NCBI GenBank assembly: GCA_903884005.1
Contig: CAISDA010000064.1
Span: forward strand, 62,001-126,000
Direction: 5' to 3'
DNA from: an uncultured Ignavibacteriota bacterium
GTDB lineage: Bacteria > Bacteroidota > Ignavibacteria > UBA10030 > UBA8401
DNA length: 64,000 nt
The notes below the pieces were generated by a model. It saw nothing but the letters and a program-made list of their open reading frames with translations, had not been told where the DNA came from and did no database searches. Position 1 is the first letter of the stretch. Every line of letters begins with the position of its first letter. Below are positions 21,343 to 42,932 of the stretch, piece by piece. The position numbers were made by a program, and so were the translations under genes.

Positions 21343-21373
21343 AGCAAGGGCGCCCGGCACGAACGCCCCTGCT
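21343..21373. terminator. Possible bidirectional terminator between convergent genes
   Basis: AGCAAGGGCG at 21343-21352 pairs with CGCCCCTGCT at 21364-21373 (one mismatch, 11-base loop), located between the ends of the M16 gene and the oppositely oriented response regulator. T-tracts are weak on both sides. Confidence 0.4.
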
Positions 21374-24460: not shown

Positions 24461-24476
24461 TGGCATAATAGTTGAA
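24461..24476 (+). promoter_or_regulatory. Sigma-54-like promoter element upstream of the PGA operon
   Basis: TGGCATAATAGTTGAA has the -24 TGGCA block and TTG at -12 with correct spacing, but GA instead of the canonical GC at the -12 dinucleotide. Transcription would begin near 24487, leaving about 130 bases of leader before ATG 24616. Confidence 0.45.
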
Positions 24477-24615: not shown

Positions 24616-25635
24616 ATGAGAAACGCGGCACGCAGTATCGTTTGTTTCATATCCGTGTTCCTGGCAGCGCACTCCGCTGCTCAGGTGCATCAGGTGCCGG
24701 CGAATGCGTTGATGGATGCCTTCGCGCAAAAGGAGGAGGTGACCATCCTGATCACCGATTCCGGTCTGGGGGGCGTAGCCGTCTGTGCCGATATCGAGGA
24801 ACGACTGCACCGCGACCACCCGTTTCGATCGGTGAAACTCGTCTTTTGCAATGCGCTGCCTGAATCCGATTACGGCTATAATATGATGGGGTCGGCAGAG
24901 GAAAAGATACGGACATTCTCTCTCGCGCTGTCCGGCATGACGAAATGGTACTCTCCGGACATCATACTGATAGCGTGCAATACGCTGTCCGTGTTGTATG
25001 AACAAACGGACTATTCCCGGACGGCAGCCGTTCCAGTGGTCAGCATTGTGGATATAGGCGTGAGGATGATGGCCGATGCGTTGAACAAGGAACCGGCATC
25101 GTCCGTGATCATCTTCGGAACGGAGACCACCATCGAAGCCAACAGTCATAAGGCGTTGTTGATGAAAAACGGGATCGCCGGGGATCGGATCGTCACCCAG
25201 TCGTGTCCCGACCTTGCGGGCGAGATCCAAAGCGACGCCGGCAGCGATGCCGTCGAGTCGATGATCGAATTTGACGCCGGCGATGCCGTCGAAAAACTCG
25301 GCACGCACGGCGGAACCGTCTATGCCGGATTGTGCTGCACGCATTTTGGCTACGCGGCCGAAAAATTTTTCGGCGCCGTGAGCCGGCTCTCCAAGCGAAC
25401 AACCGTTGTCATCGATCCGACGCGCTCAATGGGCGGCGTGGTGTTCCACCAGGGCTCATCGAACCGGTTCGCCGCAACAGCACTCAGCGTGCACGCGGCT
25501 TCCCGCGCGGTGATCACGCCGCAGGAGGCGCTGTCGATCGCCGCATTGATCGAAGGGCGATCGGAGCCAACGGCGAATGCGCTCCGGAAGTATGAAATGA
25601 AAAAAGATCTTTTCGAATTTGAGAGAGTCCGATGA
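24616..25635 (+). CDS. Exported glutamate racemase-like protein, first gene of PGA locus
   Basis: A 339-residue member of the Asp/Glu racemase superfamily. Catalytic features of cofactor-independent glutamate racemases are kept: ITDSGLGG with D48, IACNTLS with C121 and GLCCTHFG with C241-T-H243. Unusually, ATG 24616 opens a signal peptide (SIVCFISVFLAAHSAAQ), and the protein is longer than cytoplasmic MurI (about 265 residues). It would therefore racemise glutamate, or a glutamyl end, in the periplasm. The frame is open upstream to 24472, but that extension is basic, overlaps the promoter element and hides the signal peptide. The stop overlaps the next start (ATGA), indicating one operon. Confidence 0.8.
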   Translation: MRNAARSIVCFISVFLAAHSAAQVHQVPANALMDAFAQKEEVTILITDSGLGGVAVCADIEERLHRDHPFRSVKLVFCNALPESDYGYNMMGSAEEKIRTFSLALSGMTKWYSPDIILIACNTLSVLYEQTDYSRTAAVPVVSIVDIGVRMMADALNKEPASSVIIFGTETTIEANSHKALLMKNGIAGDRIVTQSCPDLAGEIQSDAGSDAVESMIEFDAGDAVEKLGTHGGTVYAGLCCTHFGYAAEKFFGAVSRLSKRTTVVIDPTRSMGGVVFHQGSSNRFAATALSVHAASRAVITPQEALSIAALIEGRSEPTANALRKYEMKKDLFEFERVR

Positions 25636-26831
25636 TGCGCGTCAACACGGTGATACGATGTGTTCTGCTGCTCGGTTCGCTCGTGAGCGTTGCGGCTCCG
25701 GTTCATTCGCAATCGTTGATGTCCGGCGATATCGTTGAGTTCGTCAGGACCATCAAGGATGCGATGCCGGATATGGGAACCAATAAGTTCTTTATTCCCA
25801 CCAACGCTCATCTTAATGTATTCGATACATTGTTTATCGATGTGAAGAACGCCAATTACACCACCATTGCGGCGCGCGCGTCGCAATTCGGGTATCAGTT
25901 CATCCGGTTCGTGAACACGGCCACCGGCGACACGCTCCTCGTGTTCAAGGAAAATGTTCCCGTCCTCCGCGGCTGGGGAACATATATGTATTGTCCCTCG
26001 GCCGCCTATGACCTGGCGATCGAGGCTCCGCATCCCTTGTGGGATACAAATTCATGGGAACTGGCAGTGCGCTTGTTCATCCGATCGGATGCGAAATGGT
26101 TCCTCCTTGCCGGAACGCACCGCTACTGCAATTCCGATTCGTCGTCGGACATGGCTCATGTCACCCAGTCGGTCTTTCATGTGTGCCACAAACGCGCGGC
26201 AACATCGTGCGCGATCCAGATCCACGGATTCAGCAAAACAGGAGCGAATGCGGGGTATCCCGACGCCGTCATCAGCAACGGGACGCTGACTCCTCCGGCG
26301 GTCCTCTACACGCTTGAAAATAAATATATTTCGAAGGGCTTTACAGCGGGCGTGTTCAGCGCCTCCACCTATGCGAAGTTGAACAATCTCGGCGCGACCA
26401 CGAACACACAGGGCCTATGGTCGAGCAACAACGGAAAAACGTTCGTCCACATCGAACACGATTATCCGCTTCGCACGACGTTGTCGAAGCAATTGCTCTG
26501 CGTCGATGCGATCGCCGAAGTGTTTGCCCCCGCTGCGACTCCGGTGCGCGCAGAGAACGCGGCGCCATCGGTCTTCTCGCTCTTCACAAATTATCCGAAC
26601 CCGTTCAACCCCTCAACGACCATCACATTCTATGCGCCCGCGGACGAATGGATGCAGCTGTCGGTCTGCGATATGTCCGGTAAAGAGATCGCCGTGCTGG
26701 TGAACGGCCGCACAGAACGCGGATTCCATTCCGTTGCGTTCAATGCGGAGCGTTATTCATCGGGAATTTACTATTGCAACATCAAAACACATTCATTCAC
26801 ACGAACAATGAAAATGGTGCTGACCAAATGA
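25632..26831 (+). CDS. Secreted candidate PGA hydrolase with type IX sorting domain
   Basis: A 399-residue protein with signal peptide (ending near VHSQ) and a sorting domain at the C-terminus (LFTNYPNPFNPSTTITFYA...GIYYCNIKT), so it is delivered to the cell surface. I do not recognise a named family with certainty. Three His-containing motifs stand out: EAPHPLWDTNSWE (H134), AGTHRYCNSD (H163) and IQIHGFS (H198). Their order and spacing recall zinc amidohydrolases of the N-formylglutamate amidohydrolase / phage poly-gamma-glutamate hydrolase type. Operon position between a racemase and PGA transport genes supports glutamyl-polymer cleavage; this is inference. Overlaps both neighbours by 4 bases. 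Confidence 0.6.
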   Translation: MMRVNTVIRCVLLLGSLVSVAAPVHSQSLMSGDIVEFVRTIKDAMPDMGTNKFFIPTNAHLNVFDTLFIDVKNANYTTIAARASQFGYQFIRFVNTATGDTLLVFKENVPVLRGWGTYMYCPSAAYDLAIEAPHPLWDTNSWELAVRLFIRSDAKWFLLAGTHRYCNSDSSSDMAHVTQSVFHVCHKRAATSCAIQIHGFSKTGANAGYPDAVISNGTLTPPAVLYTLENKYISKGFTAGVFSASTYAKLNNLGATTNTQGLWSSNNGKTFVHIEHDYPLRTTLSKQLLCVDAIAEVFAPAATPVRAENAAPSVFSLFTNYPNPFNPSTTITFYAPADEWMQLSVCDMSGKEIAVLVNGRTERGFHSVAFNAERYSSGIYYCNIKTHSFTRTMKMVLTK

Positions 26832-28663
26832 ACTCCATTGCTGTCTTGAAACGTAGTGTTATACTCGCCGCTGTCATCCTCCCGCTGCTGTGCACGGGCT
26901 GCGGTGTGTTCGCCGACGACGGAGATTCCGGTGCTTCGATCGTTCCGGCCAAAGGATATTTTTATATCGCGGACAGAAACTCCACGTCCATCATCATGAT
27001 CGATGCCGAGTTCCGTGAAATGAAGCGATGGAATTATTTTCTTGTCACGGCAGACAGCAGCATCCAGGGAATGACATGCGATGGAAAATCACTCTGGATC
27101 TCGTCGGCCGGCTCTACCGATAAAATATTTCAGATCGACGCATCGGGCGACGTGTTGACCGTGATACGGTCGTTCGACGCGCCGCCCCAGAAACAGGGAA
27201 CGACCCGCGGGCTCGCCTGGGACGGCAGCAACCTCTGGGCGGCCAACAGCGGATCGGCGACGTATGCAACGCCAGCAATGCTGTACAAGCTGGACGCCAA
27301 CGGCGCCATTCTTTCCGAGTACCAACTGCCGTCCACCGATCCGCGCGGTTTGGTCTATGTCAAACCCAAGCCCGACGTCTACGGCCGCGGCCCCGATGCT
27401 GGATTGTATTATTCGGATATCACCACGGACAAGGTGTATAAGTTCATTCCGGGGATACCATATTTTGATACGGTGTTTACGGCTCCCAAACCGCCTCTGG
27501 GCGCAAGCTATACCTATCCCGCCGGATTGGCGTATGATGGAACATTTTTCTGGCTCGTGAACAGCAGCAATGCCGCGGACCATCTCTATAGAATATCATA
27601 CACGGGCAAAGAGCAGATCCGTTACGATCTGCCGTATCCTTCCATGGGACCGGCAGTATGGACTGCTGTTGATGTGCGCGTTGAAGAGGAAATCTCTGTG
27701 TCCTCGCTTGCACCGTCGTCAGGCATCCCCGGCGCGGCGTTGACGGTGGACATTTTCGGAACAGGATTCAAATCCGGATACGGAGTTAGTGTCGATTTCG
27801 GAGCCGGCATCTCGGTCAGCGCACCGCAATACGTCAGCAGTTCACAATTGAGAGTGAACATCATCATCGACCAGTCGGCCGCACTCGGAAAACGAAATGT
27901 CAAGGTCACCAATCCGACGGGAAAATCGGCGACAGGGGTAGCGCTATTCGAACTGACGGCAGTGCCGCAAATTTCATACCTCTGGTTGGCCGATCAGGCA
28001 TCCGGACAATACAACGTGCATAAGATCCGCGTATCCGATACGACGCTCGTTCGTTCGTGGTCGACCACGGCCATCCTGTCTTCCAGCGGTGCGCAAGGAT
28101 TGGCATTCGACGGAACGAATTTCTGGATGAGCACCTCGGGCACAGACAGGAAGATCCATAAGATCGATACCACCGGTACGGCTCTGGCATCGATCTCGTC
28201 CTTCTCCGCGCCGGCAGTCGGTGGCACGGTCCGCGGGATCACCGCCGATGCGGCCGGGAATATCTGGGTCTCGATCAGTCAGGTGACCGCAGGCGGAGGA
28301 AGAATTTACAAGATGAATCAAACCTCAGGCGCAGTTCTGGATTCCATTGCAACGCCGGGACAAAATCCGCGGGGAATCACGTTCGCGAACAATATCCTGT
28401 ACTGCAACGACACGGACCTCGACACCGTGTATAGCTATACCGCCGGAGCCTGGAGTGGAAAATTTCAAACACCCACGACCGGCGGCGCGAGCAGATTTGC
28501 AACCGGCCTCACATGGGACGGCACTAATTTCTGGATCGCAAACTCTACGACGGCATCCGATTATCTGTTCAAGGTATCGCTGACGGGAACAGTGCTTCAA
28601 ATATTCCGCCCGGGTATTGCCGGCGACCCGCAATTCACCGGATTAATGTATGTTGGAAAATAA
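26828..28663 (+). CDS. Beta-propeller/IPT-domain lipoprotein
   Basis: A 611-residue protein starting at ATG 26828, which overlaps the previous stop. The N-terminus ends in LCTGC with C25 as the probable lipidated residue. Residues about 40-290 are propeller-like repeats of the pattern GLAWDGSNLWAANS; an IPT/TIG domain follows (SLAPSSGIPGAALTVDIFGTGF, about 295-380); a second propeller-like segment occupies 390-611 (GLAFDGTNFWMSTSG). No catalytic residues are evident. It is likely a surface or periplasmic binding or scaffold protein of the PGA system, possibly holding polymer near the following outer-membrane barrel. Confidence 0.7.
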   Translation: MNSIAVLKRSVILAAVILPLLCTGCGVFADDGDSGASIVPAKGYFYIADRNSTSIIMIDAEFREMKRWNYFLVTADSSIQGMTCDGKSLWISSAGSTDKIFQIDASGDVLTVIRSFDAPPQKQGTTRGLAWDGSNLWAANSGSATYATPAMLYKLDANGAILSEYQLPSTDPRGLVYVKPKPDVYGRGPDAGLYYSDITTDKVYKFIPGIPYFDTVFTAPKPPLGASYTYPAGLAYDGTFFWLVNSSNAADHLYRISYTGKEQIRYDLPYPSMGPAVWTAVDVRVEEEISVSSLAPSSGIPGAALTVDIFGTGFKSGYGVSVDFGAGISVSAPQYVSSSQLRVNIIIDQSAALGKRNVKVTNPTGKSATGVALFELTAVPQISYLWLADQASGQYNVHKIRVSDTTLVRSWSTTAILSSSGAQGLAFDGTNFWMSTSGTDRKIHKIDTTGTALASISSFSAPAVGGTVRGITADAAGNIWVSISQVTAGGGRIYKMNQTSGAVLDSIATPGQNPRGITFANNILYCNDTDLDTVYSYTAGAWSGKFQTPTTGGASRFATGLTWDGTNFWIANSTTASDYLFKVSLTGTVLQIFRPGIAGDPQFTGLMYVGK

Positions 28664-28673
28664 GGATCGGGCT

Positions 28674-29951
28674 ATGAAGAAAATATTTCTCTTACTCTGT
28701 GCAGCAGTGTTTGTGTTCCTGATGATGCCGCGGCAGCTCCACGCGCAATTCAATGTTGAAGGCGATTTCCGCGTGCGATGGTATTCCGACAGCTTCGGCT
28801 GGGCTCGCGACGATCGGGGGCAGGAAAATTATATGCGCTACCTCGCGAGGATCCGCACGAAGGCAAAAGTGACGAACACGACAACGTTCAATGCCGAGTT
28901 CATTTCGCTGATCGATAATCCGGGCCAACCGGTGCGCAACATCGCCGGCACCGGACCCATGCGATACGGCGTCAGCCAGCTCTACGCCGAAATGTCGCAG
29001 GAAAATTTCCTGATCTTCGATCTTGCCCGCGTGCGTGTCGGACGCCAGCAGTTCCCCATCGGAAACGGATTGTCGTTCGGCGAGTCCTATTATTACACGG
29101 ATAAATTCGACGGCGGCAGGGTCGATCTTGCGCTGTTCCCCGTGACGCTCTCGTTGTTTGGAGCGGTGACCGGACAGAATCTGAGCGCATCCGGACTCTA
29201 TCCCGATCCGGGGAGCGATCAAATTTATGCGGCTAAGCTCGGCTGTACTGTGTTGGGACAGGATCTGATGCTCTACGGGATCGACCAGCGCCTCCGGGGC
29301 GCGTATAACGATAATGTCATCTACGGCGCCGGAACGGCGGGTGAGCTGTACGTGAAGGATCTCGAATACTTCGCAGAAGGCGCCTACCAAAAATTCAATC
29401 AACCGCCGGGACTTCCCGAAAAAGCGGGGATAGGCTACATGGGAGGCGTCAGCTATCGGTGGGGAATGGGTCCGTTTCGGTCCATTAAAATAGAGACTCG
29501 CTATGCCGCATATCAGGGCGACGATGCGAAGACGGAAAAGATCGAACAGTTCAGTCCGCCGTATCCCGACTTTTTCTGGGGCAGCAGGGTCGGCTATGTG
29601 AACGGCGACGTCGGAGGAGATTATCCGCGCAACAGTCAAAATTTGGAGGGCAGCCGGATCTGGTATTCGAGGATCTATTTCATTCCGAAAGTTTTGCCGA
29701 AAGTGCGGCTGCAGTTCCAATACGTGAAAGTGAACGAATACGTCGACAACGACAACTACAATTCAATGGACGACGAATTCTCGGCGCGTCTCTATTACTC
29801 GGTGACGAACAATTCCGCATTCCAGCTCCGGTTCTCGCGCGTCATTCCGAATGCCGACGACAAGGACCGTGACGGCAACGGATCGATCACCTCATCGGAG
29901 GACCGCGTGTCCGTGAACACCGTCATGCTTGAATGGCAGATAGAATTTTAA
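28674..29951 (+). CDS. Outer-membrane beta-barrel (alginate-export/porin-like)
   Basis: A 425-residue protein starting at ATG 28674 after TAAGGATC; signal peptide ends at LHAQ. The mature part is made of alternating amphipathic strands (FNVEGDFRVRWYSD, MRYLARIRTKAKV, DLARVRVGRQQFPIGNG) and ends with the aromatic strand MLEWQIEF, the C-terminal signature for Bam-dependent barrels. The RVGRQQFPIGNG type of motif recalls AlgE/alginate-export porins. Within this operon it is the best candidate for an outer-membrane channel for poly- or oligo-glutamate; ion selectivity cannot be judged from sequence alone. Confidence 0.7.
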   Translation: MKKIFLLLCAAVFVFLMMPRQLHAQFNVEGDFRVRWYSDSFGWARDDRGQENYMRYLARIRTKAKVTNTTTFNAEFISLIDNPGQPVRNIAGTGPMRYGVSQLYAEMSQENFLIFDLARVRVGRQQFPIGNGLSFGESYYYTDKFDGGRVDLALFPVTLSLFGAVTGQNLSASGLYPDPGSDQIYAAKLGCTVLGQDLMLYGIDQRLRGAYNDNVIYGAGTAGELYVKDLEYFAEGAYQKFNQPPGLPEKAGIGYMGGVSYRWGMGPFRSIKIETRYAAYQGDDAKTEKIEQFSPPYPDFFWGSRVGYVNGDVGGDYPRNSQNLEGSRIWYSRIYFIPKVLPKVRLQFQYVKVNEYVDNDNYNSMDDEFSARLYYSVTNNSAFQLRFSRVIPNADDKDRDGNGSITSSEDRVSVNTVMLEWQIEF

Positions 29952-29974
29952 TGAGTTTATAAAAAAACGTACGC

Positions 29975-31243
29975 ATGCCTTTAGAACTGATCATATTGCT
30001 TTCCATGCTGGCGGTGTTTGCCGGCGGCGTGTTCTGGCTTAAACTGCCTTCCGGCGTCGCCATGGGTGCTGCCGCTGTGGTCGGAGCCCTCGTGGGTGGG
30101 CAGGGAATTCCCGTCCGTCACCTCGTGGAAGGAACATTCGGGTATCTCGACGCCATGCTCATCATCGCCACCGCGATGATCTTTATGAAGGTTGTCGAAG
30201 CAACCGGTGCGCTCGGAACGATCAGCTACAGCATGATCAAATCGCTCTATCGCTATCCGACGCTGCTGATGATACTGGTGGCGTTCTTCGTGATGTTCCC
30301 GGGAATGATGACCGGTCTGTCCTCGGCATGTATTTTAACGACAGGCGCTCTTGTGGCTCCCGCGCTGGTCGGCATGGGAATACCCGCCGCGTCTGTCGGG
30401 GCGTTCATTGCCATGATGGCGGTGTTCGGCATGATCGCACCGCCCATTAATATTCCCGTCATGATCATCGGCGGCGGCGTCGATATGCCGTACGTCGGGT
30501 TTGAAAAACCGCTGATCATGCTGACATTTCCGCTCGCCATCGCGACGGCGCTGTATTACCGGTTCCGTTTCATCCGGAAGATCAACGTGGATGAGATTCT
30601 TGAAAAGCTTCCGCGGTCGGTGTACGCAAAACACGGCATCAAGCTGTTCCTTCCGCTGTTCATCGTCATCGGATTGATGGTCGGCATACGCATTGCGCCG
30701 GACGCGATTCCCGATATCGGCATTCCGCTGATCTTCATGATCGGCGCGGTGGTCGGGATCCGCACCGGAGAGAAGGTTGCGGTGATCGATGTTGCGCGCA
30801 CGGCGATACGCGAATCGCTTCCCGTGCTGGGTATCCTTGCCGGCGTCGGTATGTTCGTCCAGATCATGACGCTGACCGGCGTGCGCGGGTATCTTGCGGT
30901 GAGCGCATTGCAGCTCCCGCCCGAATTCCTGTATCCCGGCATCGCGCTTATTATGCCGGCGATGGGCTCGGCATACGCGGCATCATCCGTGATCGGCGTT
31001 CCGCTCGTGTTCGTGTTCCTCGGACGCAATGAAATCGTCGTGACATCCGCGCTGTCGCTCATCGCCGGAATCGGCGATCTGATGCCGCCTCCGTCGCTGT
31101 TGTGCGTGTTCGCCGCTCAGCTGCTCGGAATAAAAAATCATTTTACCGTCTTGAAGGCGGCCGCGGTTCCCATTGTGATCGCGCTGCTTGCCGGAGTTCT
31201 GGCGATCATTTTTGCCGCCGATATCGGCTCACTGTTGAAGTAG
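29975..31243 (+). CDS. DctM-like (TRAP large subunit-type) permease
   Basis: A 422-residue polytopic membrane protein with about 11-12 hydrophobic segments and no signal peptide. The pattern MMTGLSSACILTTGALVAPALVGMGIPAASVGAFIAMMAVFGMIAPPINIPVMIIG is characteristic of the large subunit of tripartite TRAP transporters and of related ion-transporter-superfamily permeases. No canonical DctP binding protein or DctQ subunit lies next to it; instead a tiny membrane ORF and a DUF6305 protein are close by. It probably moves glutamate or short glutamyl peptides across the inner membrane. Direction of transport is not evident. Confidence 0.8.
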   Translation: MPLELIILLSMLAVFAGGVFWLKLPSGVAMGAAAVVGALVGGQGIPVRHLVEGTFGYLDAMLIIATAMIFMKVVEATGALGTISYSMIKSLYRYPTLLMILVAFFVMFPGMMTGLSSACILTTGALVAPALVGMGIPAASVGAFIAMMAVFGMIAPPINIPVMIIGGGVDMPYVGFEKPLIMLTFPLAIATALYYRFRFIRKINVDEILEKLPRSVYAKHGIKLFLPLFIVIGLMVGIRIAPDAIPDIGIPLIFMIGAVVGIRTGEKVAVIDVARTAIRESLPVLGILAGVGMFVQIMTLTGVRGYLAVSALQLPPEFLYPGIALIMPAMGSAYAASSVIGVPLVFVFLGRNEIVVTSALSLIAGIGDLMPPPSLLCVFAAQLLGIKNHFTVLKAAAVPIVIALLAGVLAIIFAADIGSLLK

Positions 31244-31252
31244 GAGCGGACA

Positions 31253-31399
31253 ATGATATTCTATCTTTATATACTCATTGCGGCAATCACGGCCGCCATC
31301 ATTGTCGCGGAATTGTTCCGTGAAAAAAGCTGGCGTCACCAGCTTGCGATGGTCATTATCCTGATCCCTCTTGTGCTTAGAATATTTCACATAAAATAA
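31253..31399 (+). CDS. 48-residue membrane peptide in the PGA operon
   Basis: ATG 31253 is preceded by AGGAG at 31242-31246, which overlaps the stop codon of the permease gene, and the stop TAA (31397-31399) is one base before the next start. The peptide begins MIFYLYILIAAITAAIIVAE and has two hydrophobic segments (about 2-19 and 30-44) around a charged loop LFREKSWRH. Tight packing, a good ribosome-binding site and membrane character make it a credible gene. It may be a reduced small subunit for the DctM-like permease, or an accessory like the small PgsE peptide of Bacillus; neither homology is established. Confidence 0.65.
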   Translation: MIFYLYILIAAITAAIIVAELFREKSWRHQLAMVIILIPLVLRIFHIK

Positions 31400-31400
31400 C

Positions 31401-32519
31401 ATGCAGCGACACCACTATACAGCCTTGGCGTTCTTGTTTCTCGGAGTGATCGTGTCCGCGATTGCGTCAAGGGATTTCCTTTCGATGCGCGCGCCGGACG
31501 TCCTGTATCCGTCCCGGTTCGTGACGAAGACCGGAATGCTCAGCGGGTATTGTCCGGACATCCATGGCACGTACGGCGACACACCGGTCTATTACTTTGA
31601 GAGCGGACAACCTGGCGCGACAATATTGCTTCTGGGCGGAACGCATCCCAACGAATCGGCCGGTTTTATCGCCGCCGCCGTGCTGGTAGAAAATGTCCGC
31701 CTTGCCAAAGGAAGGCTGATCGTTGTTCCCCAGGCGTGTGCCAGCGGATTCACCGCGACCGATCCGCTCGAAGCCAGTCCGATGTCATTTACATTGACAA
31801 CGCGAAGCGGGGAGCGCGTGTTTCGGTCCGGCGCGCGCGGCGGCAATCCGATCCACCAGTGGCCCGATCCGCTTGTCTATCGCCATTATCCGTCGGGGCA
31901 GCAGCTCTCCGGCATGGAAAGCAGAAATTTGAACCGCTCCTATCCCGGAAATCCGAACGGCACGTTCATGGAAAAAAACGGTCATGCACTGCTGCAATTG
32001 ATCAAGACGGAAAAGGTGGATATCGCGTTCGATCTGCACGAAGCCGCGCCTGAAGTGATGATCATCAATGCGATCATCACGCACGAAAAAGGGAGCGACA
32101 TAGCCGCCACTGCCGTCTTGAACCTGGAATTGGAAGACCTGAAATATTCGCTTGAATTATCGCCCAAAAATTTTCACGGACTGAGCCATCGCGAATGGGG
32201 AGATTCGGCGAGTGTGATTCCGTTCCTGATGGAAACCAGCAATCCGATCCAGGGACGACTCCGCGGCGCGACGAATGTGAATTTGCTCCTCAATGGGAAA
32301 GACAAATTTTATTCGATTGCGTCTCAACTGACGAATGTGCGCATCACGTACGAACCGGACGGCGAACCGCTCTCGCTGAGGGTTGGGCGGCACCTGCAGG
32401 GATTTCGCAGGCTGATCGAATCGTATAACGAGCAGCACCCGGACAACACCGCGATCGTCGAAAATATTCCCGAGTATCATTCAGTGATCGAGCGCGGTGT
32501 CGGCAATTTTTTGAAATAG
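31401..32519 (+). CDS. Succinylglutamate desuccinylase/aspartoacylase-family (M14-like) metallohydrolase
   Basis: A 372-residue zinc-enzyme candidate with an N-terminal hydrophobic anchor or signal (YTALAFLFLGVIVSAIA). GGTHPNESAG supplies H82 and E85 and FDLHEAAPE supplies H213 as third zinc ligand, the M14/AstE-AspA arrangement; NLNRSYPGNPNG carries the substrate-carboxylate Arg. Family members remove acyl groups from glutamate or aspartate or act as carboxypeptidases. In this setting, an exo-type cleavage of gamma-glutamyl chains or of their ends is plausible. It begins one base after the small membrane peptide. Confidence 0.8.
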   Translation: MQRHHYTALAFLFLGVIVSAIASRDFLSMRAPDVLYPSRFVTKTGMLSGYCPDIHGTYGDTPVYYFESGQPGATILLLGGTHPNESAGFIAAAVLVENVRLAKGRLIVVPQACASGFTATDPLEASPMSFTLTTRSGERVFRSGARGGNPIHQWPDPLVYRHYPSGQQLSGMESRNLNRSYPGNPNGTFMEKNGHALLQLIKTEKVDIAFDLHEAAPEVMIINAIITHEKGSDIAATAVLNLELEDLKYSLELSPKNFHGLSHREWGDSASVIPFLMETSNPIQGRLRGATNVNLLLNGKDKFYSIASQLTNVRITYEPDGEPLSLRVGRHLQGFRRLIESYNEQHPDNTAIVENIPEYHSVIERGVGNFLK

Positions 32520-32559
32520 AAGCACACTTCCATTCATTGTATCATAGGAGACATACGGT

Positions 32560-33117
32560 ATGAAATTTTTTCGCTATCTTACACTCGTCATCGCTTTGGG
32601 CACGTCGGTGACAATGCTGTTCTCGCAGTCGAAAGAAAAATTTGAACAACCCATCCTCATTACCTCTGCCGGACAAAGTGCCGATGTGACACTCGCCGCC
32701 AGTTTGTGTAAAAAGGCGGGATTGAATGCCAGGGCCATCAATCGCGCGACGGCGGCCGATGTGAAAGATGCAAAAACACTGATGATCGTTCCGGGCTTCA
32801 GTTCCAAGGGGCTCGGCGCAGCCGGCATCAGCCGCGAGCAGGAAATGGACCGTGTGAAAGAGGTCATCGCCGCCGCGGTGAAACAAAAAATGAAGATCTT
32901 CGTGCTGCACATTGGCGGAAAGCCGCGCCGCGGCGTTCAATCGGATGACTTCAACAAAGTATGCGCTGAAGCGTCTCAGGCGATGATCGTCGTCAAAGCA
33001 GGCAATGAGGATAACTTTTTTTCCGCGATCGCTGCCTCAAAAAAGATCGGCATCACGGTGGTCGAAAAAATTGCCGAAGCGATCAAGCCGCTTGAAGCCG
33101 CTTGTACGAAGAACTGA
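32560..33117 (+). CDS. DUF6305-like exported protein
   Basis: A 185-residue protein with a signal peptide (YLTLVIALGTSVTMLFSQ) and a ribosome-binding site TAGGAG. The mature region begins QPILITSAGQSADV, continues with MIVPGFSSKGLGAAGI, IFVLHIGGKPRRG and VVKAGNEDNFF, the pattern I associate with DUF6305. The function of that family is not known to me; its fold looks like one Rossmann-type alpha/beta domain, half the size of a periplasmic binding protein. Placement next to a DctM-like permease and a gamma-glutamyltransferase suggests a role in binding a substrate or metabolite of the same system. Confidence 0.7.
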   Translation: MKFFRYLTLVIALGTSVTMLFSQSKEKFEQPILITSAGQSADVTLAASLCKKAGLNARAINRATAADVKDAKTLMIVPGFSSKGLGAAGISREQEMDRVKEVIAAAVKQKMKIFVLHIGGKPRRGVQSDDFNKVCAEASQAMIVVKAGNEDNFFSAIAASKKIGITVVEKIAEAIKPLEAACTKN

Positions 33118-33176
33118 TGTGCGGAGCTTTCACGAGCGCGGCCATTCAATAGATTATTAATTATGCAAAGACCATC

Positions 33177-35177
33177 ATGAAAACATATCGTATCGTGTAT
33201 CGCCTGTTTGTTTCCATCGCCCTTGTCACATCGCTTCTTGTGTCGCAAACAGTCAGCGTCGCCTCGAAGGGCGACGTCGCTGTTGGAAAGGACGGAATGG
33301 CGACCACAGCCCATCCGCTCGCATCCAAAGCGGCCATGGAAATGCTGCAGCGCGGAGGCAATGCCGTTGATGCCGCCGTTGCGGCCGCGTTCGCCATCGG
33401 CGTCGTGGAGGCGGACGGCTCGGGCCTCGGCGGCGGCGGCGCAATGGTGGTGTACCTGCAGAAGGAACAACGGTCGGTCTTCATCAACTATTACCAGCAG
33501 GCCTCGGAAAAGATCAATGAGGTGAATTACAATCCTGCAACCGACAACAAATCCGCTAAAACGATACTCGTCCCCGGAAATGCGGCGGGATTGACATCCG
33601 CTCTCGAGAAATATGGAACGCTCCCGCTTGCAGTCGTTCTTGCGCCGGCGATCAAATATGCGGAAGAAGGATTTCCGCTGGATGAAACGCTCTCCAGCAT
33701 CATCCTCGACAACAACGATCTGCTGGCTAAATATCCTTCCACCGCCGGGATCTACCTGCCTGAAGGATTTCCCATTCAGCAGGGAGAGACACTGAAACAG
33801 CCGGAACTGGCGCGCACGCTCCGGGCGATCGCGCAGCAAGGCCGCAAAGGTTTCTACGAGGGCCCGGTGGCCGAAGAGATCGTCAAAGTGGTGACCGAAA
33901 ACGGCGGCAAGATGAACATGAACGACATGAAAAACTACCAGGTCGTTATCAGCGAACCTGTGCGCGGCACGTATCGTGGATATGAAATTCTCTCGGCCGA
34001 CGCGCCGCTCTCCGGTGCATCGGTCATTGAGGCGATGAATATGCTGGAGAACGCAGACATCAAAAAAATGGGCCATTTTTCCTCGTCGGTGAATACGACG
34101 CACCTGATGGCCGAAACCATGCGCCGCGTGTATGCAGACCGGACTTCGTTCATACAGGATCCGCGCTTCGCATACATTCCCACGAACGGATTGATCTCGA
34201 AAGATTTTGCGGCGAACCGGTTCAACGACATCAACATGGCAACGGCAGACCCGACCGACTATAGAAAAACGAAGTCCGGGAACCCGCTGCCGTACGATGC
34301 AAAATCGCGAAAACGGATATCGGCCCCGCCGCAACAACAGACAACCGTTGATGTGCGCGACGATGTGGATGATGAAGCATCCTCCTCTAAAAAAGAATCG
34401 GACCCGTTCGATAATTGGGGGAAAAAGAAGAAATCCCGGATCGAGCCTGCACCGAATGCAACACCTGAAGGCAAGGACGACAGCACCAGCCAAAAAAAGA
34501 ACGGCAAGAGCGATCCAGAGAAAAAAGAGATCGAATCGTCGTACAACATGCGTGCGGCGGACAGTCTCGGCCATCTGCTTGTGCTCTACGCCGAATTGGC
34601 GGAACCGCCGCTCATGGAAAGTGACGGACATACGACGCATCTGTCCGTCGCCGATAAATTCGGCAACGTCGTTTCGTTGACGCAAACGCTCGGAACGTTT
34701 TTCGGTTCAGGACTCACAGCGGCCGGTGTGATGATGAACGGGTCGCTGTCCAATTTTTCGACCACCACGTCTGTTAATTCGATCGAACCGAACAAACGGC
34801 CGCGCAGCTCGATCGCGCCGACGATCATCCTGAAGGACGGGAAACCGTTCATGTCCGTCGGTTCGCCCGGCGCCTCGCGCATCGTGGCTACCGTGATCCA
34901 GCTCATTGTCAATGCGATCGATTTCGGCATGGACGCGGGCGAAAACAACCGCGCGCCGAGGTTCTTCTGCCAAAAATTCGAGGACTACCTTCACCTCGAG
35001 TCGCGTTTCACAGACGACGTGAAAGAGGGATTAAAGAAAAAAGGGCATACCCTGCGCGAGCACGCTGAATTTGATCTGTATTTTGGCGGCGCACAGATCA
35101 TTATGATCGATCAGGCGACCGGAACATTCTACGGGTCGGCCGATCCGCGCCGGGGCGGTGCAGCAATCGGCGATTAA
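33177..35177 (+). CDS. ggt: Gamma-glutamyltransferase with charged insertion
   Basis: A 666-residue Ntn-hydrolase. Signal peptide, then the GGT large-subunit motifs GMATTAHPLASKAAMEMLQRGG and EADGSGLGGGGAM. Autoprocessing should occur before T486 in DGHTTHLSVADKFGNVVSLTQT, leaving T486 as N-terminal nucleophile of the small subunit; PRSSIAPTI and SPGASRI close the active site. Between about residues 370 and 465 there is a low-complexity charged insert (DDVDDEASSSKKESD, GKKKKSR) absent from E. coli GGT. The family includes CapD, which cleaves PGA and anchors it to peptidoglycan. Role here: cleavage or transfer of gamma-glutamyl units in the periplasm. Confidence 0.9.
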   Translation: MKTYRIVYRLFVSIALVTSLLVSQTVSVASKGDVAVGKDGMATTAHPLASKAAMEMLQRGGNAVDAAVAAAFAIGVVEADGSGLGGGGAMVVYLQKEQRSVFINYYQQASEKINEVNYNPATDNKSAKTILVPGNAAGLTSALEKYGTLPLAVVLAPAIKYAEEGFPLDETLSSIILDNNDLLAKYPSTAGIYLPEGFPIQQGETLKQPELARTLRAIAQQGRKGFYEGPVAEEIVKVVTENGGKMNMNDMKNYQVVISEPVRGTYRGYEILSADAPLSGASVIEAMNMLENADIKKMGHFSSSVNTTHLMAETMRRVYADRTSFIQDPRFAYIPTNGLISKDFAANRFNDINMATADPTDYRKTKSGNPLPYDAKSRKRISAPPQQQTTVDVRDDVDDEASSSKKESDPFDNWGKKKKSRIEPAPNATPEGKDDSTSQKKNGKSDPEKKEIESSYNMRAADSLGHLLVLYAELAEPPLMESDGHTTHLSVADKFGNVVSLTQTLGTFFGSGLTAAGVMMNGSLSNFSTTTSVNSIEPNKRPRSSIAPTIILKDGKPFMSVGSPGASRIVATVIQLIVNAIDFGMDAGENNRAPRFFCQKFEDYLHLESRFTDDVKEGLKKKGHTLREHAEFDLYFGGAQIIMIDQATGTFYGSADPRRGGAAIGD

Positions 35178-35256
35178 CGCACGCCGCGCTCCCGACATGA
35201 ATGCTCGCGGATGGTAAACTCGTGCTCCATTGATGTGAAGTGTTTTTTTTGGGTAA

Positions 35257-35423
35257 CTGCTCACCATACTCTGTATATCCATGTCATTCTGAGGGAGCGA
35301 AGCGACCGAAGAATCTAAAACCCATAGGCAACAGGCAGCCTGGATTAGATGCTCCCATCACCAGGTTGTTATAGATCCTTCGCTGCGCTCAGGATGACAG
35401 TGATTTGGGTGTACGCTGAGTAG
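35257..35423. mobile_element. MITE-like element, copy 1
   Basis: Core 35282-35399 begins TGTCATTCTGAGGGAGCGA and ends CTGCGCTCAGGATGACA, a long imperfect inverted repeat. Weaker outer arms (CTGCTCAC... / ...GCTGAGTAG) extend it to about 167 bases. A second copy lies at 59620-59789. It carries no gene, sits between ggt and pgsB and ends 13 bases before the pgsB start. Confidence 0.75.
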
Positions 35424-35436
35424 AGACTTTATTTGT

Positions 35437-36645
35437 ATGTTTCATCACGTGGCGGATGGTCTTCCTCGCATTGTGTCATCGCACGACCAGACAGCGAAAG
35501 CATTATCATTGACTATCGTACCCATTATCACCATTGCATGCCTGATGTTGTTGATCGCTGAACGGATCATTCTCACGCGGCGTGTCCGTTCGATCGCGTG
35601 CCGCATTCATGTGAACGGCACTCGTGGGAAATCCAGCGTTACGCGCTACATCGGTGCCGTCCTGTCGGCTTCACAACGACGGACCTATGCAAAGATCACC
35701 GGAATCGTTCCAACCCTGATCTCTCCCGACGGTTCATCGCAGGCGATACGCCGCCGGGGCACGCCGCGTGTGCAGGAACAATTTTCGGTCATTTCCCGTG
35801 CGGCCGCGGGTTGTGCCGACGCGGTGGTGCTGGAGTGCATGTCCCTGAAGCCGGAATATCAGCGATTGGAAGCGCGAATATTTCTCCCTCACGTCACGGT
35901 GATTACGAACATAGAGGATGATCATCGTGAAGAGATGGGAGTCTCACACGAAGACCACGTCGCTGCGATCAGTGAAGGCATTCCCTTCCATGCGGTTGTG
36001 TTTACCGCCGATGCGGGACACTTCCCGCTCCTGCAACACTATGCCGAAGCGCGGGGAACCACTGTCCACTGTGTGCCGCCCCTTGCTCAGGAACTTGCCT
36101 CTCAATTGCCGGAAGGAATGTTCGCCGCCAATGTAGCGCTGGCGCTTGCTGTCGGCGCCCACTGGGGAATCAGCGAACAATTTTCGTTCGATGCGATCCG
36201 CGCGCTCGGCGCAGAGAGCGATTGTGTCGAGACTACGATCAACGGATTCCGCACGCGCTTTCTCAACGGGTTTGCGGTCAACGATGTCCCGTCGGCCGAA
36301 CGGTATATTGACCGATGGTGCGATACTGCTGCGCCGAGAAAAAAAATCATCATCCTTAATACGCGCAGCGATCGTCCGCTCAGGACGGTCGAATTTGTGA
36401 AATGGTGCGCGTCGGTGAACGATCTTCATCATCTGTTCATTACCGGCACGCATGCCGCGTTTGCATCCCGGGCGCTGAAAAAATCACAGCTCGCTCCGGC
36501 AGCCTATAGCCGCGTGACCTCACAGGAACTTCCGGCGAGGATAGCGGACATGCTGTGCGCTGAAACGGACATCGTGGGCTTTGGCAATATTGCAGGAGAA
36601 GGGTTCGAGATCGTCTCGTATTTCAAGAACAGGGATGCCGCATAA
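35437..36645 (+). CDS. pgsB: Poly-gamma-glutamate synthase ligase PgsB/CapB
   Basis: A 402-residue Mur-ligase-like amide ligase that adds glutamate to the growing gamma-linked chain using ATP. Residues about 25-45 form a membrane anchor (LTIVPIITIACLMLLIAE); the P-loop is HVNGTRGKSSVTR with K65; then ECMSLKPEYQ, VITNIEDDHREEMG and ILNTRSDRPLR follow, all characteristic of PgsB/CapB rather than MurC-F or FolC. The length matches Bacillus PgsB (about 393). Gene order B-C-W with 2-base and 1-base gaps downstream confirms the identification. Confidence 0.93.
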   Translation: MFHHVADGLPRIVSSHDQTAKALSLTIVPIITIACLMLLIAERIILTRRVRSIACRIHVNGTRGKSSVTRYIGAVLSASQRRTYAKITGIVPTLISPDGSSQAIRRRGTPRVQEQFSVISRAAAGCADAVVLECMSLKPEYQRLEARIFLPHVTVITNIEDDHREEMGVSHEDHVAAISEGIPFHAVVFTADAGHFPLLQHYAEARGTTVHCVPPLAQELASQLPEGMFAANVALALAVGAHWGISEQFSFDAIRALGAESDCVETTINGFRTRFLNGFAVNDVPSAERYIDRWCDTAAPRKKIIILNTRSDRPLRTVEFVKWCASVNDLHHLFITGTHAAFASRALKKSQLAPAAYSRVTSQELPARIADMLCAETDIVGFGNIAGEGFEIVSYFKNRDAA

Positions 36646-36647
36646 CA

Positions 36648-37088
36648 ATGGTCATTGAAACGCTCTTCATCGGACTTATCATCGGATTTATGTTCTACGA
36701 ACTTTCCGGCGTCTCGCCGGGCGGCGTGGTCGCTCCCGGTTATTTTGCGCTGTTTGTTCATCAGCCGGGTCGCATCCTGGTCACCGTGGTCATCGCCCTT
36801 GCCGTGTGGGGTGTGCTGGAATTGGCATCGCGTCATCTCATTGTCTACGGGCGGCGAAAGCTCCTCCTCGCACTTCTCCTGAGTTTTACGCTCAAGCTGT
36901 GTGTTGAACAATGGATACAACCGCTTCAACACCTGCCGTTCGATATCCAATCGATCGGCTATATCATTCCCGGACTCATTGCAAACGAGATGTCGCGGCA
37001 GCGGATCGTTCCCACACTTTCCGCCCTGGGCATTGTCACCGCGATCGTGTTCTTCGTCGTCACGCTCGTTCAACCGTTCATTCGCTAG
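36648..37088 (+). CDS. pgsC: Poly-gamma-glutamate biosynthesis membrane protein PgsC/CapC
   Basis: A 146-residue polytopic protein (about four hydrophobic segments) directly after pgsB. GLIIGFMFYELSGVSPGGVVAPGYFALF is the conserved PgsC/CapC signature; GYIIPGLIANEMSRQRI is its C-terminal conserved part. PgsC forms the membrane synthase core with PgsB. Length agrees with the family (about 149). Confidence 0.93.
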   Translation: MVIETLFIGLIIGFMFYELSGVSPGGVVAPGYFALFVHQPGRILVTVVIALAVWGVLELASRHLIVYGRRKLLLALLLSFTLKLCVEQWIQPLQHLPFDIQSIGYIIPGLIANEMSRQRIVPTLSALGIVTAIVFFVVTLVQPFIR

Positions 37089-37089
37089 C

Positions 37090-38112
37090 GTGAAAAAACA
37101 TCCGGACATACGGCTTGTGCTGCTGGCGCTCGGCGCCGTCACGCTCGTCATTCTCTCTCAGACTCTTTTCCTCGATACGCAGGACGCACCGAATGCCGGC
37201 AAGGTCCGTGACGCGATACGTGTCGCCGATGCGTGGATGAATATTATACAGCAGGAAAAAGCGGCGCGTCATCTTCTCTCCGCCGAAGCGAATCATTTTC
37301 CGTCCGAAGCCATGCTCGGCGACGATTTTTCGGAGATGACCACAACGCTCGGCTCGCTCGAAGCAAAAAAAATTTCGGTCAATCCGCAGTTCGCCGGTCT
37401 CGTCGTACGGTGGATCACCGAACTCGGCCTCGATTCGACCGATGAAGTGATGGTCTCGTCGTCCGGCTCGTTCCCGGGGCTTGCGATTTCCACGATGGCG
37501 GCGTTGCAGACCATGAATCAGCGCGCAGTCCTGACAATGTCCATCGGCGCGTCGTCCTTTGGCGCGAACCAGCCATCCATGACAATGATCGACATCCAGA
37601 GGCTGCTCAACCGGAAAGGGAATTTACGCTACCTGCCCGAACTGATCACCTATGGCTGCGACAATGACAATGGCGAAGGATTTTATGACGGGGGAAAAGA
37701 AGCTGTCGACTCATCCGCGCTCCGCAGCGGCGTGCAGATCTGGAAGCCCGCCACGCTCGAAGAGTCGATCGCGAAGCGGCTGGATATCGTAAAGACCCGT
37801 CACGTCCGGCTCCTGATCAACATCGGCGGCAATCATGCGATGTTGGGAAATTGCGCCCACGCGTCGTCGTGGCCCAACGGCCTGCATCGGTCGGTCGCGA
37901 CGTGTGCGCATGCCGACCGCGGCGCGATCGCGCGGATACATGAGCTCGGAATACCGGTGATTCATTTTCTGAACATCAAAGAGCTTGGATTGAAGAACGG
38001 CATTTCAGATTCCTATACGTCGAACGAGGAATTATTTGTAACAAGAAGAACGAATACGATTGCAGCACTATGCTCCCTGGCGCTTCTTGCCTCGTGCGTT
38101 CTGCTATTATAA
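37090..38112 (+). CDS. pgsW: Poly-gamma-glutamate system protein PgsW
   Basis: A 340-residue protein starting at GTG 37090, one base after the pgsC stop. It has an N-terminal membrane anchor (LVLLALGAVTLVILSQT) and a C-terminal hydrophobic segment (NTIAALCSLALLASCVLLL) with a soluble domain between. Conserved-looking stretches are DEVMVSSSGSFPGLAIS, MSIGASSFGANQPSMTMIDIQ and INIGGNHAMLGNCAHASSWPNGL. I recognise it as the poly-gamma-glutamate system protein that accompanies PgsBC in several non-Bacillus genomes, where it replaces or supplements CapA. Its biochemical function is not known to me. Confidence 0.85.
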   Translation: MKKHPDIRLVLLALGAVTLVILSQTLFLDTQDAPNAGKVRDAIRVADAWMNIIQQEKAARHLLSAEANHFPSEAMLGDDFSEMTTTLGSLEAKKISVNPQFAGLVVRWITELGLDSTDEVMVSSSGSFPGLAISTMAALQTMNQRAVLTMSIGASSFGANQPSMTMIDIQRLLNRKGNLRYLPELITYGCDNDNGEGFYDGGKEAVDSSALRSGVQIWKPATLEESIAKRLDIVKTRHVRLLINIGGNHAMLGNCAHASSWPNGLHRSVATCAHADRGAIARIHELGIPVIHFLNIKELGLKNGISDSYTSNEELFVTRRTNTIAALCSLALLASCVLLL

Positions 38113-38193
38113 ATCCAACTGCGGCCGCACTAGAATACCAAGCATTTGTGGATCATGGCCGCACGAATTGTCCGACGGATCAGGAAAAAAAAC

Positions 38194-39834: not shown

Positions 39835-39890
39835 TGGCGCGTTAACCCCGCATGCACGGTGCGGCACACGTATCAATAGATAGCAGGCAC

Positions 39891-40808
39891 ATGAACATTG
39901 TGAACACCGTTTTGATAATTATTTTCTGCTGCGCGCTGCAGCCTCTTGCGGCGCAAACCTCAGAGACGCTCATCCCCGGCAAGTCATACTTCGGCGAAAA
40001 GCACTACATCGAATATATCGCGGGGAATATGCCGCTTGTGATCTCCGTGCCCCACGGTGGACATCTGGAACCGGAGGAGATCGCAGACCGGGAACTCGGC
40101 ACAAAAGGGAATTACGACGTCTACACGCAGGAGCTTGCCCGCGCGATCGTCGATGCGGTATTCCGGCGCACAGGAAAATACCCGTACTGCATCATCAACC
40201 GATTGCATCGCAGTAAACTGGATGCGAACCGCGAAGAATATGATGCGGCGCAGGACAATCAGCCGGCTCTCCAGGCATTCAGGGAGTTCCATCAATTCAT
40301 CGACTCGGCGGAATCATCCGTATGGAGAACATTCGGAGCCGGGTTGTACATCGACTTGCACGGCCACAGACATAAGACACAGCAATTGGAATTGGGTTAC
40401 CTTCTTGTCGGATCGCAGTTGGCGTTATCCGACGATTCGTTGAATGCGCAGAAAAATCTTACCTCGAGCAGCGTCGGATCTCTTGCGATGCAGCAGCGTC
40501 TGTCGCTCGCCGAAATCATCCGGGGCCCGAACAGCATCGGCGCGTTATTCGAACAGAGGGGTATTCCCGCCGTGCCCAGTCCGACACGGCCGAATCCCGG
40601 AGGCGCTCTGTATTTCAGCGGCGGTTACAATCTTGAGAGGCATAGTTCCGCAGGCACCGGAGTGCTCGGCGGGGTGCAGATCGAAACATATAGTACCGGA
40701 ATCCGGGACGGTGACAAGAACGTCAACGCATTTGCCCTGACGGCTGCCGACGTGCTCCTTGAATATCTCCGCGTCTACCAGCTCCGGATGGCCCATCGGA
40801 TCAATTGA
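39891..40808 (+). CDS. N-formylglutamate amidohydrolase-like exported enzyme 1
   Basis: A 305-residue exported protein; ATG 39891 gives a signal peptide (VNTVLIIIFCCALQPLAAQ). SVPHGGHLEPEEIADR (H55) and YIDLHGHRHK (H157) match the two metal-binding motifs of the N-formylglutamate amidohydrolase family (PF05013), and LDANREEYDAAQDN is another strongly conserved segment. HutG-type enzymes are cytoplasmic; export suggests a different substrate with a glutamyl amide. A paralogue with about half its residues identical is at 52288. Both genes neighbour a beta-helix secreted protein. Confidence 0.75.
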   Translation: MNIVNTVLIIIFCCALQPLAAQTSETLIPGKSYFGEKHYIEYIAGNMPLVISVPHGGHLEPEEIADRELGTKGNYDVYTQELARAIVDAVFRRTGKYPYCIINRLHRSKLDANREEYDAAQDNQPALQAFREFHQFIDSAESSVWRTFGAGLYIDLHGHRHKTQQLELGYLLVGSQLALSDDSLNAQKNLTSSSVGSLAMQQRLSLAEIIRGPNSIGALFEQRGIPAVPSPTRPNPGGALYFSGGYNLERHSSAGTGVLGGVQIETYSTGIRDGDKNVNAFALTAADVLLEYLRVYQLRMAHRIN

Positions 40809-40947: not shown

Positions 40948-40963
40948 TGGCATAGACATTGCT
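40948..40963 (+). promoter_or_regulatory. Sigma-54 promoter
   Basis: TGGCATAGACATTGCT has GG and GC separated by exactly 10 bases, with TGGCA and TTGCT blocks, a near-consensus -24/-12 promoter. It precedes the beta-helix gene (ATG 41025, with AAGGAG at about 41013) by 62 bases. A TTGGGCGGGAATC segment at 40891-40903 faintly resembles the reverse complement of the repeats at 24382 and 24406. Confidence 0.65.
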
Positions 40964-42827: not shown

Positions 42828-42932
42828 TCCTTTCATAAATTGTGCAGAGGGTTATCCGGAGTTATGGTGATCATCCATTCAACAAACGATAACCCTTTGT
42901 ATTTGGTCCCACTCCAATCGCAAAAGGCTCTC

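Follow-up and report, generated by a model that had tools for sequence, protein, structure and literature searches.

Poly-gamma-glutamate (PGA) is known mainly as the capsule or slime of Bacillus. Among the closest described gene clusters are the Bacillus pgsBCA(E) and capBCADE operons, which hold the PgsB ligase, PgsC and, in the cap operons, a gamma-glutamyltransferase (GGT)-type gene; PGA synthesis genes are also described in uncultured Gram-negative anaerobes, the Cloacimonadota (PMC13082233, PMC8542988), and polyglutamate production has been reported for Fusobacterium nucleatum, likewise Gram-negative (Candela et al. 2009, as cited in PMC3815933 and PMC4928254). Here we analyse a locus in a 64-kb stretch of DNA (the window) from contig C64 of assembly G000 (4.53 Mb), an uncultured Ignavibacteriota bacterium (GCA_903884005.1, CAISDA010000064.1, positions 62,001 to 126,000). 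Judged by its sequence, this conserved locus joins PGA synthesis genes to genes that apparently cut the polymer and take it up again, and its core occurs in three phyla. With moderate confidence we interpret it as a Gram-negative system for making and reusing PGA, in which the polymer would be a recoverable store of glutamate.

An earlier note on this DNA had described a set of twelve genes in one direction, which was confirmed: A to K, including the small gene e, all lie on the plus strand between 24,616 and 38,112, as follows.

24616..25635, plus strand: A, exported glutamate-racemase-like protein (TIGR00067 44.4 bits, below cut-off; motifs)
25632..26831, plus strand: B, candidate zinc hydrolase of an unnamed family, secreted by the type IX secretion system (T9SS) (Por_Secre_tail, conserved motifs)
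26828..28663, plus strand: C, repeat lipoprotein, beta-propeller-like by eye (NF058597 37.8 bits, cut-off 30; CTGC lipobox-like)
28650..29951, plus strand: D, outer-membrane porin-like protein (weak NF033939 porin match, 23.7 bits, cut-off 250)
29975..31243, plus strand: E, DctM-like inner-membrane permease (PF06808 29.8 bits, cut-off 23.8)
31253..31399, plus strand: e, 48-aa two-helix membrane peptide (conserved directly after E)
31401..32519, plus strand: F, membrane-anchored or exported AstE/AspA-like zinc hydrolase (PF24827 35 bits, cut-off 25)
32560..33117, plus strand: G, exported DUF6305 protein (PF19823 163.9 bits, cut-off 25)
33177..35177, plus strand: H, exported GGT (TIGR00066 459.1 bits, cut-off 357.85)
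35437..36645, plus strand: I, PgsB, PGA synthase ligase (TIGR04012 equivalog profile, 257.0 bits, cut-off 222.7)
36648..37088, plus strand: J, PgsC (TIGR04011 121.7 bits, cut-off 96.45; also PF14102)
37090..38112, plus strand: K, PgsW (TIGR04332 family profile, 257.5 bits, cut-off 100)

The overlapping or tight spacing noted earlier also held for most junctions, the exception being the 259-bp gap between GGT and PgsB, which is shorter in 10 of 10 relatives with the E-F-G order and both genes visible. A 26-base sequence in this gap (35374-35399) has an exact second copy at 59740-59765, and a repeat-looking stretch at 35,283 occurs once within the window. Parts of the earlier description needed revision: the locus runs past 38,112, same-strand genes extending to about 53,187 (about 20 genes), and the twelve genes, although present, comprise two conserved blocks, A-D and E-K, that are fused in the window.

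PgsB, PgsC and PgsW were identified in agreement with the earlier assignment, each scoring above the curated NCBI profile cut-off. The PgsB family comprises ATP-dependent ligases. A MurC/FolC ligase, the possibility against which the earlier note had asked for a check, was rejected, the profile search giving PgsB (257.0 bits) with FolC at 20.8 (cut-off 162.65) and MurE at 29.3 (cut-off 257.3). PgsC is the sole CapC match of the genome, and PgsW, whose most likely start as read from the translation is the GTG at 37,090, has a hydrophobic helix at either end and an alpha/beta domain in the middle. GGT enzymes are able to release terminal gamma-glutamyl units. The window GGT aligns with solved small chains from residue 486, so that the processing threonine opens the small chain, and its match to a solved GGT (4y23, 356 bits) exceeds those to the CapD chains (186.3 and 88.0 bits), which disfavours a CapD-type anchoring transpeptidase. 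A lysine-rich low-complexity insert of ~100 residues (about 34,280-34,630) lies just before the processing threonine. No CapA/PgsA match was found among the scanned locus genes, the remaining genome not having been searched for CapA; this is no obstacle, because pgsBC without pgsA is enough in B. subtilis, giving an L-rich polymer, according to the abstract of PMC6029982.

Four genes, E to G, stand ahead of GGT. E has 11 hydrophobic segments, and DctM matches were obtained for 12 of its 17 aligned members, the best-matching stretch in the window protein spanning part of the model only. Peptide e follows E in all 19 E-F loci examined in the class and also in Cetobacterium. In F the motifs GGTHxxE and DxHEA are invariant (15 of 15 sequences); HxxE...H represents the zinc ligands of AstE/AspA hydrolases. 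The structural model of G, built from three sequences (predicted local distance difference test, pLDDT, 65), is an alpha/beta protein of flavodoxin/CheY-like arrangement; Foldseek returned 15 matches for it at E≤0.001 (best 9e-05), and its highest VIA Z was 9.4 (root-mean-square deviation (rmsd) 3.4, 123 aligned), many unrelated families being tied. A relationship of G to dihydropteroate synthase, raised by short PDB profile matches (best E=0.0014), is not believed. With the PgsW model (five sequences; pLDDT 77, pTM 0.79), Foldseek found nothing at E≤0.001; the top VIA Z was 7.9 (rmsd 4.0, 156 aligned), a level that may reflect just the common alpha/beta arrangement, and no believable PDB relative of PgsW was found by sequence. 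Fold searches with these models gave no functional assignment for PgsW or DUF6305.

The conservation of the neighbourhood, which the earlier note had proposed to check, reaches far beyond close relatives, into the class, Calditrichota and Cetobacterium. In a sample of 294 genomes from the window's class, eight genes recur as a core: E, e, F, G, GGT, PgsB, PgsC and PgsW (G and L numbers hereafter denote the genomes and the loci or stretches compared, and C64 and C6 contigs of G000). The 14 genomes that have E are also those that have F, with 16 loci for each, always ≤4 kb apart, with e as the sole intervening gene at 15 of the 16; in G180 the racemase and one further gene stand between them. 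PgsW was found in 23 genomes (22 over the cut-off), including 12 of the 14 E/F genomes versus 11 of the 280 others, and the racemase family in 24, including 11 of the 14 versus 13 of the 280; the respective Fisher p values, 1.6e-13 and 2.7e-11, overstate significance because related genomes are not independent. The two E/F genomes without PgsW are G180 and G016, whose contig ends inside PgsB.

Gene order was compared at 19 loci holding E and F, window included. Nine relatives (G003, G006, G007, G013, G040, G032, G172, G193 and G212) share the order E-F-G-GGT-PgsB-PgsC-PgsW, with GGT split over two frames in G006, and G016 and G020 show the same order up to the contig end, at PgsB and GGT, respectively. 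The order PgsB-PgsC-PgsW-G-E-F is found in four genomes of one genus (G050, G231, G263 and G271). Three E-F clusters are without Pgs genes of their own, namely G180 (L083) and the second loci of G263 (L085) and G271 (L084). L083 and L085 hold the racemase, E, e, F and G with GGT and an N-formylglutamate-amidohydrolase (FGase)-like gene, and no Pgs genes in the stretch; the L084 cluster (racemase, E, e, F, G) lies ~2 kb from another set, PgsBCW-G-E-F, that converges with it. One genus accordingly carries two paralogous E-F-G sets (L084 in G271; L050/L085 in G263), one with PgsBCW and the other with the exported racemase. G180, where the order is C-D-E-e-A-F-G-FGase-GGT and the stretch also includes a T9SS protein and a B-type domain, has no CapC match in its assembly (99% complete) and therefore fits a utilisation module. 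It is the best evidence, from one genome's gene content, that the block can serve utilisation alone.

The core was further traced in two other phyla. Among 39 genomes of the Calditrichota, the phylum of G604, F is present in 21 and CapC in 37, so that PGA synthesis may be near phylum-wide; 19 of the 21 F genomes have CapC, the exceptions being G635 and G640. Of 20 stretches around F, six show GGT-PgsW-E-F-G without adjacent PgsBC (L170, L171, L173, L174, L185 and L188; in L170, E is separated from F by two additional reading frames), and one (L186) shows PgsW-E-F-G cut by the contig end. Nine hold F and G but no E or PgsW (L172, L175-L180, L183 and L184), and the remainder are L189 (F-G on a 3.5-kb contig), L181 (E-F without G), and L182 and L187 (F alone). 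A further stretch, L022, runs GGT-PgsW-E up to the contig end, and the stretch around the G604 CapC holds PgsB-PgsC with another PgsW.

On plasmid p1 of Cetobacterium somerae (Fusobacteriota; NZ_CP143320.1, about 404-411 kb), all eight core genes form one run on one strand, annotated as ggt, DUF6305, TRAP (tripartite ATP-independent periplasmic) large permease, 47-aa peptide, succinylglutamate desuccinylase-like, pgsB, pgsC and pgsW. Identity to the window proteins is 50.8% for E, 44.7% for F and 45.1% for G, and of 72,556 plasmid records this was the only one to match any of PgsW, E, F and DUF6305 under the limits applied. Near this core (L217 16532-19203) there are also another ggt and two genes for chromate transporters. 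A contig scan with a single PgsW protein yielded 4 loci only, and DUF6305 and PgsW scans of viral contigs gave nothing. Calditrichota and Cetobacterium contradict the narrow range of DUF6305 that a phylum search had suggested, in which 8 of 395 matched at E≤0.001, 7 of them above the cut-off and every one from the window's class.

In a PgsW tree of 27 rows, the seven Calditrichota copies adjoining E form one group (98/98), which Cetobacterium joins (97/93) on a long branch of unsure place; six copies from plain PgsBCW loci group together (100/98), and a third group comprises eleven from the window's class (98/96). G604 contributes two copies that belong to different groups, and thus PgsW type is not set by phylum alone, while the copies of G050 and G231, which adjoin E-F-G, group with the plain copies (98/96) and speak against a simple split by context. 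The tree row L020 belongs to G018, a genome in which E and F were not found.

The racemase A leads the other block of the window locus. The earlier description of an exported racemase stands as to its catalytic motifs, which are intact, but A scores under the MurI equivalog cut-off (TIGR00067, 44.4 vs 146.65). It matches PDB MurI 1b73 at E=1.5e-08, its N-terminus is signal-like by eye, and the motifs DSGLGG, ACNTLS and LCC[TS]H occur in 4 of 4 sequences with both cysteine motifs kept; we take the ACNT- and CTH-type motifs to be the two catalytic cysteines of MurI. Because G000 encodes a separate MurI above the cut-off, A is an extra, apparently exported relative. The same genome has a second A-family gene (C6:60689-61672; L111, L136) with a signal-like N-terminus and another neighbourhood.

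The block consists of a kinase and a regulator divergent from A-(B)-C-D, and it is separate from the core in relatives. It was seen in 6 of the 15 racemase neighbourhoods examined (G003, G006, G016, G032, G193 and G212), those of seven further racemase-bearing genomes lying outside this comparison. In G003 it is on the core's contig, ~21 kb away; G193 is without B; and in G212 an FGase-like gene replaces B and the block stands upstream of the core. G018 has only A-B on a 3-kb contig, and eight neighbourhoods are without the pattern, including the second copy of G000 and the E/F genome G172. C recurs together with D in relatives, D following C; D has a signal-like N-terminus and a C-terminal F residue. 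The regulatory genes, two tentative promoter-like sites and the genes that extend the locus downstream are the following.

21372..22748, minus strand: sigma-54-dependent response regulator, NtrC/AtoC-like, divergent, block 1 (Pfam Sigma54_activat and Response_reg; start inferred from alignments)
22753..24297, minus strand: sensor histidine kinase, divergent, block 1 (HATPase_c and HisKA)
24461..24476, plus strand: tentative sigma-54-promoter-like site 5' of A (TGGCATAATAGTTGAA, score 14.5/16.5)
38146..39834, plus strand: L, C45/AAT-like N-terminal nucleophile (Ntn) hydrolase with T9SS tail, outside the twelve-gene set (PF03417 26.0 bits, cut-off 23.2)
39852..40808, plus strand: M, exported FGase-like hydrolase (PF05013 34.1 bits, cut-off 28.9)
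40948..40963, plus strand: tentative sigma-54-promoter-like site 5' of N (TGGCATAGACATTGCT, maximum score)
41025..42827, plus strand: N, T9SS-secreted protein (Por_Secre_tail)
42840..45629, plus strand: O, TonB-dependent receptor (PF00593 and PF07715)
45634..48639, plus strand: P, large exported protein (relatives near the core in other loci)
48654..49676, plus strand: Q, PorV/PorQ-family outer-membrane protein (NF033709 197.3 bits, cut-off 90)
49740..52244, plus strand: R, T9SS-secreted protein (Por_Secre_tail)
52288..53187, plus strand: S, second exported FGase-like hydrolase (PF05013 22.3 bits, below cut-off 28.9; aligns with M)

Orthologues of the response regulator (54-85% identical) and of the histidine kinase (42-79%) stand beside racemase A in 6 loci. 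Sigma-54-like sites were scored by our own scheme (maximum 16.5). The site 5' of N is the only one of maximum score in the window. That 5' of A is equalled by 2.6% of 1000 random 300-bp stretches, and its counterparts, similar sites in L135 and L138, do not extend beyond the family. Such sites are not in excess across the window (58 vs 63-80 in shuffles), nor are those upstream of E above chance. Sigma-70 and terminator scans gave no informative result, and an Rfam scan of 20,000-54,000 returned nothing at the gathering threshold.

The T9SS tail PF18962 (cut-off 27) scores 34.6 in B, 35.2 in N and 38.1 in R; L falls below it (21.2) but exceeds TIGR04183 (26.5 vs 23), and scores below the cut-off of NF040521. 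B carries PHPxWDTNxW, AGTHRYxN, QIHGF and HIExDxPLRT in 6 of 6 sequences, a set resembling that of M and S from which we guess that it might bind zinc; near the core, 6 other proteins carry its domain without the tail. Apparent B relatives in Calditrichota were not counted, as these matches, from a profile that included the tail, vanished once the tail was removed. T9SS proteins upstream of E in two loci (L036:9116-13453 and L054:17431-19770) combine an M23 peptidase domain with a B-domain-related stretch. M has SxPHxG, LDxNR, DxHG and QxE in 6 of 6 sequences, and M and S share conserved His, Asp-x-His and Glu motifs. None of B, F, M and S matches the Pfam family of the PGA hydrolase PghP, which we take to be PF05908. 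Relatives of S stand beside the core in L034, L057, L085, L035 and L083, close relatives of R in L034 and L057, and relatives of O-P-Q upstream of E in L034, L047, L053 and L057; P and Q relatives also adjoin the racemase-E-F-G cluster of L085, and weaker matches to both occur in L041, a locus without E. L relatives lie directly 5' of a racemase-A homologue in L141 and L148, where neither E nor F was seen in the stretch.

A mechanism can be proposed from what is observed, namely the gene families, catalytic motifs that are intact, a conserved order and co-inheritance. PgsB and PgsC would synthesise PGA at the inner membrane and, with PgsW, export it. Outside the cytoplasm, the T9SS-secreted B, the FGase-like M and S, the membrane-anchored F and GGT would degrade the polymer to oligomers and glutamate, with porin D, and perhaps the O-P-Q trio, admitting fragments through the outer membrane and A interconverting or balancing D- and L-glutamate. 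E would then bring glutamate or gamma-glutamyl oligomers back into the cytoplasm with e and the periplasmic G, which are proposed as partners because they travel with E; control of these genes probably falls to the kinase and the sigma-54 regulator encoded divergently. We infer the localisations, the substrate, the direction of transport, the place of e and G as transporter subunits, the regulation, and the joining of synthesis and reuse in one cell. The nearest folds of PghL, a known PGA hydrolase, include N-formylglutamate amidohydrolase (Z 12.2; excerpt of PMC6506827), which supports M and S as candidate PGA hydrolases. More tentatively, E, e and DUF6305 might constitute a new TRAP-like importer of gamma-glutamyl oligomers, and PgsW might be a polymer-handling protein common to the making and the reusing side. 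On that reading, PGA would serve Gram-negative bacteria of at least three phyla not as a capsule but as an extracellular reserve of glutamate that can be drawn on again.

Support for PGA that is both made and reused comes from the PgsB, PgsC, PgsW and GGT scores above the cut-offs, the co-occurrence of E and F, the conservation of e, the enrichment of the racemase and the eight-gene run of Cetobacterium. The full polymer cycle proposed earlier thus survives as the best reading, established as to synthesis genes and linkage but conditional as to cleavage and uptake. Its supposed adaptation to type IX secretion does not extend to the core, because the core exists in Cetobacterium and partly in Calditrichota; T9SS cargo represents added surface proteins. 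Several observations besides the non-independence of the genomes weigh against the reading. The DctM membership of E rests on modest scores and one believable PDB match (E=0.0064), and no Pfam match to DctP or DctQ was found among the scanned locus genes, peptide e being outside the scan. No close relative of B, M or S has a solved structure. In the class, 11 of the 23 PgsW genomes are without E and F, and therefore PgsBCW can exist without the module, and the racemase is absent from 3 of the 14 E/F genomes and gave no match on the Cetobacterium plasmid. In Calditrichota, the nine stretches with F and G but no E or PgsW are a further difficulty; moreover, because 19 of the 21 F genomes there have CapC elsewhere, separation from synthesis at the genome level rests mainly on G180.

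This last point bears on the strongest alternative, which we consider unlikely: a Gram-negative capsule-assembly operon in which E, e, F, G and GGT finish or export PGA, E aiding translocation and F and GGT trimming or attaching the polymer as CapD does in Bacillus. Synthesis genes accompany nearly all E/F sets, as PgsW is present in 12 of 14 class genomes and G016 would be the thirteenth, CapC is found in the 19 Calditrichota genomes just mentioned, PgsW stays with E and F even where PgsBC are elsewhere, and GGT-type enzymes process PGA in Bacillus (excerpt of PMC3815933). Against these stand the DctM-family proteins, which are importers, the racemase and the several secreted hydrolases, which better suit breakdown, the closer match of GGT to GGT than to CapD (356 bits vs 186 and 88), and G180, which lacks a CapC match yet keeps E, e, F, G, GGT, the racemase and an FGase-like gene.

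The same genome would also suit a different explanation, to which we assign a low probability, in which dead or preyed-on cells are the source: the permease, the racemase and the hydrolases would scavenge their gamma-D-glutamyl peptides from peptidoglycan, or their other gamma-glutamyl compounds, the tie to PgsBCW being secondary. Gamma-D-Glu is present in peptidoglycan stems, the racemase family occurs in 13 class genomes without E and F, and M23 domains exceed the Pfam cut-off in T9SS proteins adjoining E in L036 and L054 (L058 falling below, 26.6 vs 28.7). However, no M23 match was found among the scanned window genes, and the ties to PgsB-PgsC-PgsW (class and Cetobacterium) and to PgsW (Calditrichota) argue otherwise. 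Finally, that the blocks are chance neighbours of unrelated function is very improbable and was rejected: the two blocks lie on different contigs in G006, G016, G032 and G193 and surface proteins differ between loci, but E-e-F-G and PgsW stay together in conserved order across three phyla, E and F have identical distributions in the 294 genomes, and the racemase is over-represented among the E/F genomes.

If PGA is indeed both made and recovered by these genes, so that its synthesis is tied to a dedicated permease and to cutting in the periplasm, the purpose ascribed to Gram-negative PGA would change. Functions would be assigned to DUF6305, PgsW and the unnamed 48-aa peptide, and new gamma-PGA hydrolases would be predicted. 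The idea is directly testable because the core lies on a plasmid of a cultured fish-gut bacterium, C. somerae. In the open-access literature searched (titles and the starts of abstracts), we found no description of a combination of synthesis, cutting and uptake genes, and nothing on PgsW with PGA, PGA utilisation loci, PGA in Ignavibacteria or an exported glutamate racemase; DUF6305, TIGR04332 and PgsW are mentioned only in papers unrelated by title, and the phrase 'poly-gamma-glutamate system protein' occurs once in a Francisella tularensis paper (PMC5362203). The earlier statement that no counterpart is described thus holds for function in that literature, but C. somerae provides a counterpart in sequence.

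Compared with the Bacillus operons, the window locus has PgsW and no PgsA/CapA match among the scanned genes, and it adds the permease, e, the AstE-like hydrolase, DUF6305, the racemase and the outer-membrane genes. The Cloacimonadota operons consist of CapB, CapC and CapA, or of CapBC with other synthesis or transport proteins, and uptake or recycling genes are not mentioned in the excerpts of PMC13082233 and PMC8542988. In F. nucleatum, the gene context of polyglutamate production may include part of the core. TRAP transporters (DctPQM) resemble the locus in the DctM similarity of E, whereas E is accompanied by the 48-aa peptide and DUF6305 and no DctP or DctQ match. The phage-type gamma-PGA hydrolases PghP and PghL are likewise zinc enzymes, and the fold of PghL is near the family matched by M (excerpt of PMC6506827), whereas B, F, M and S stand apart from the PghP family. 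In C. somerae the order is GGT-G-E-e-F-PgsB-C-W, with no racemase match and no T9SS cargo annotated in the stretch, and separate response-regulator and ATP-binding (kinase-like) genes stand next to ggt.

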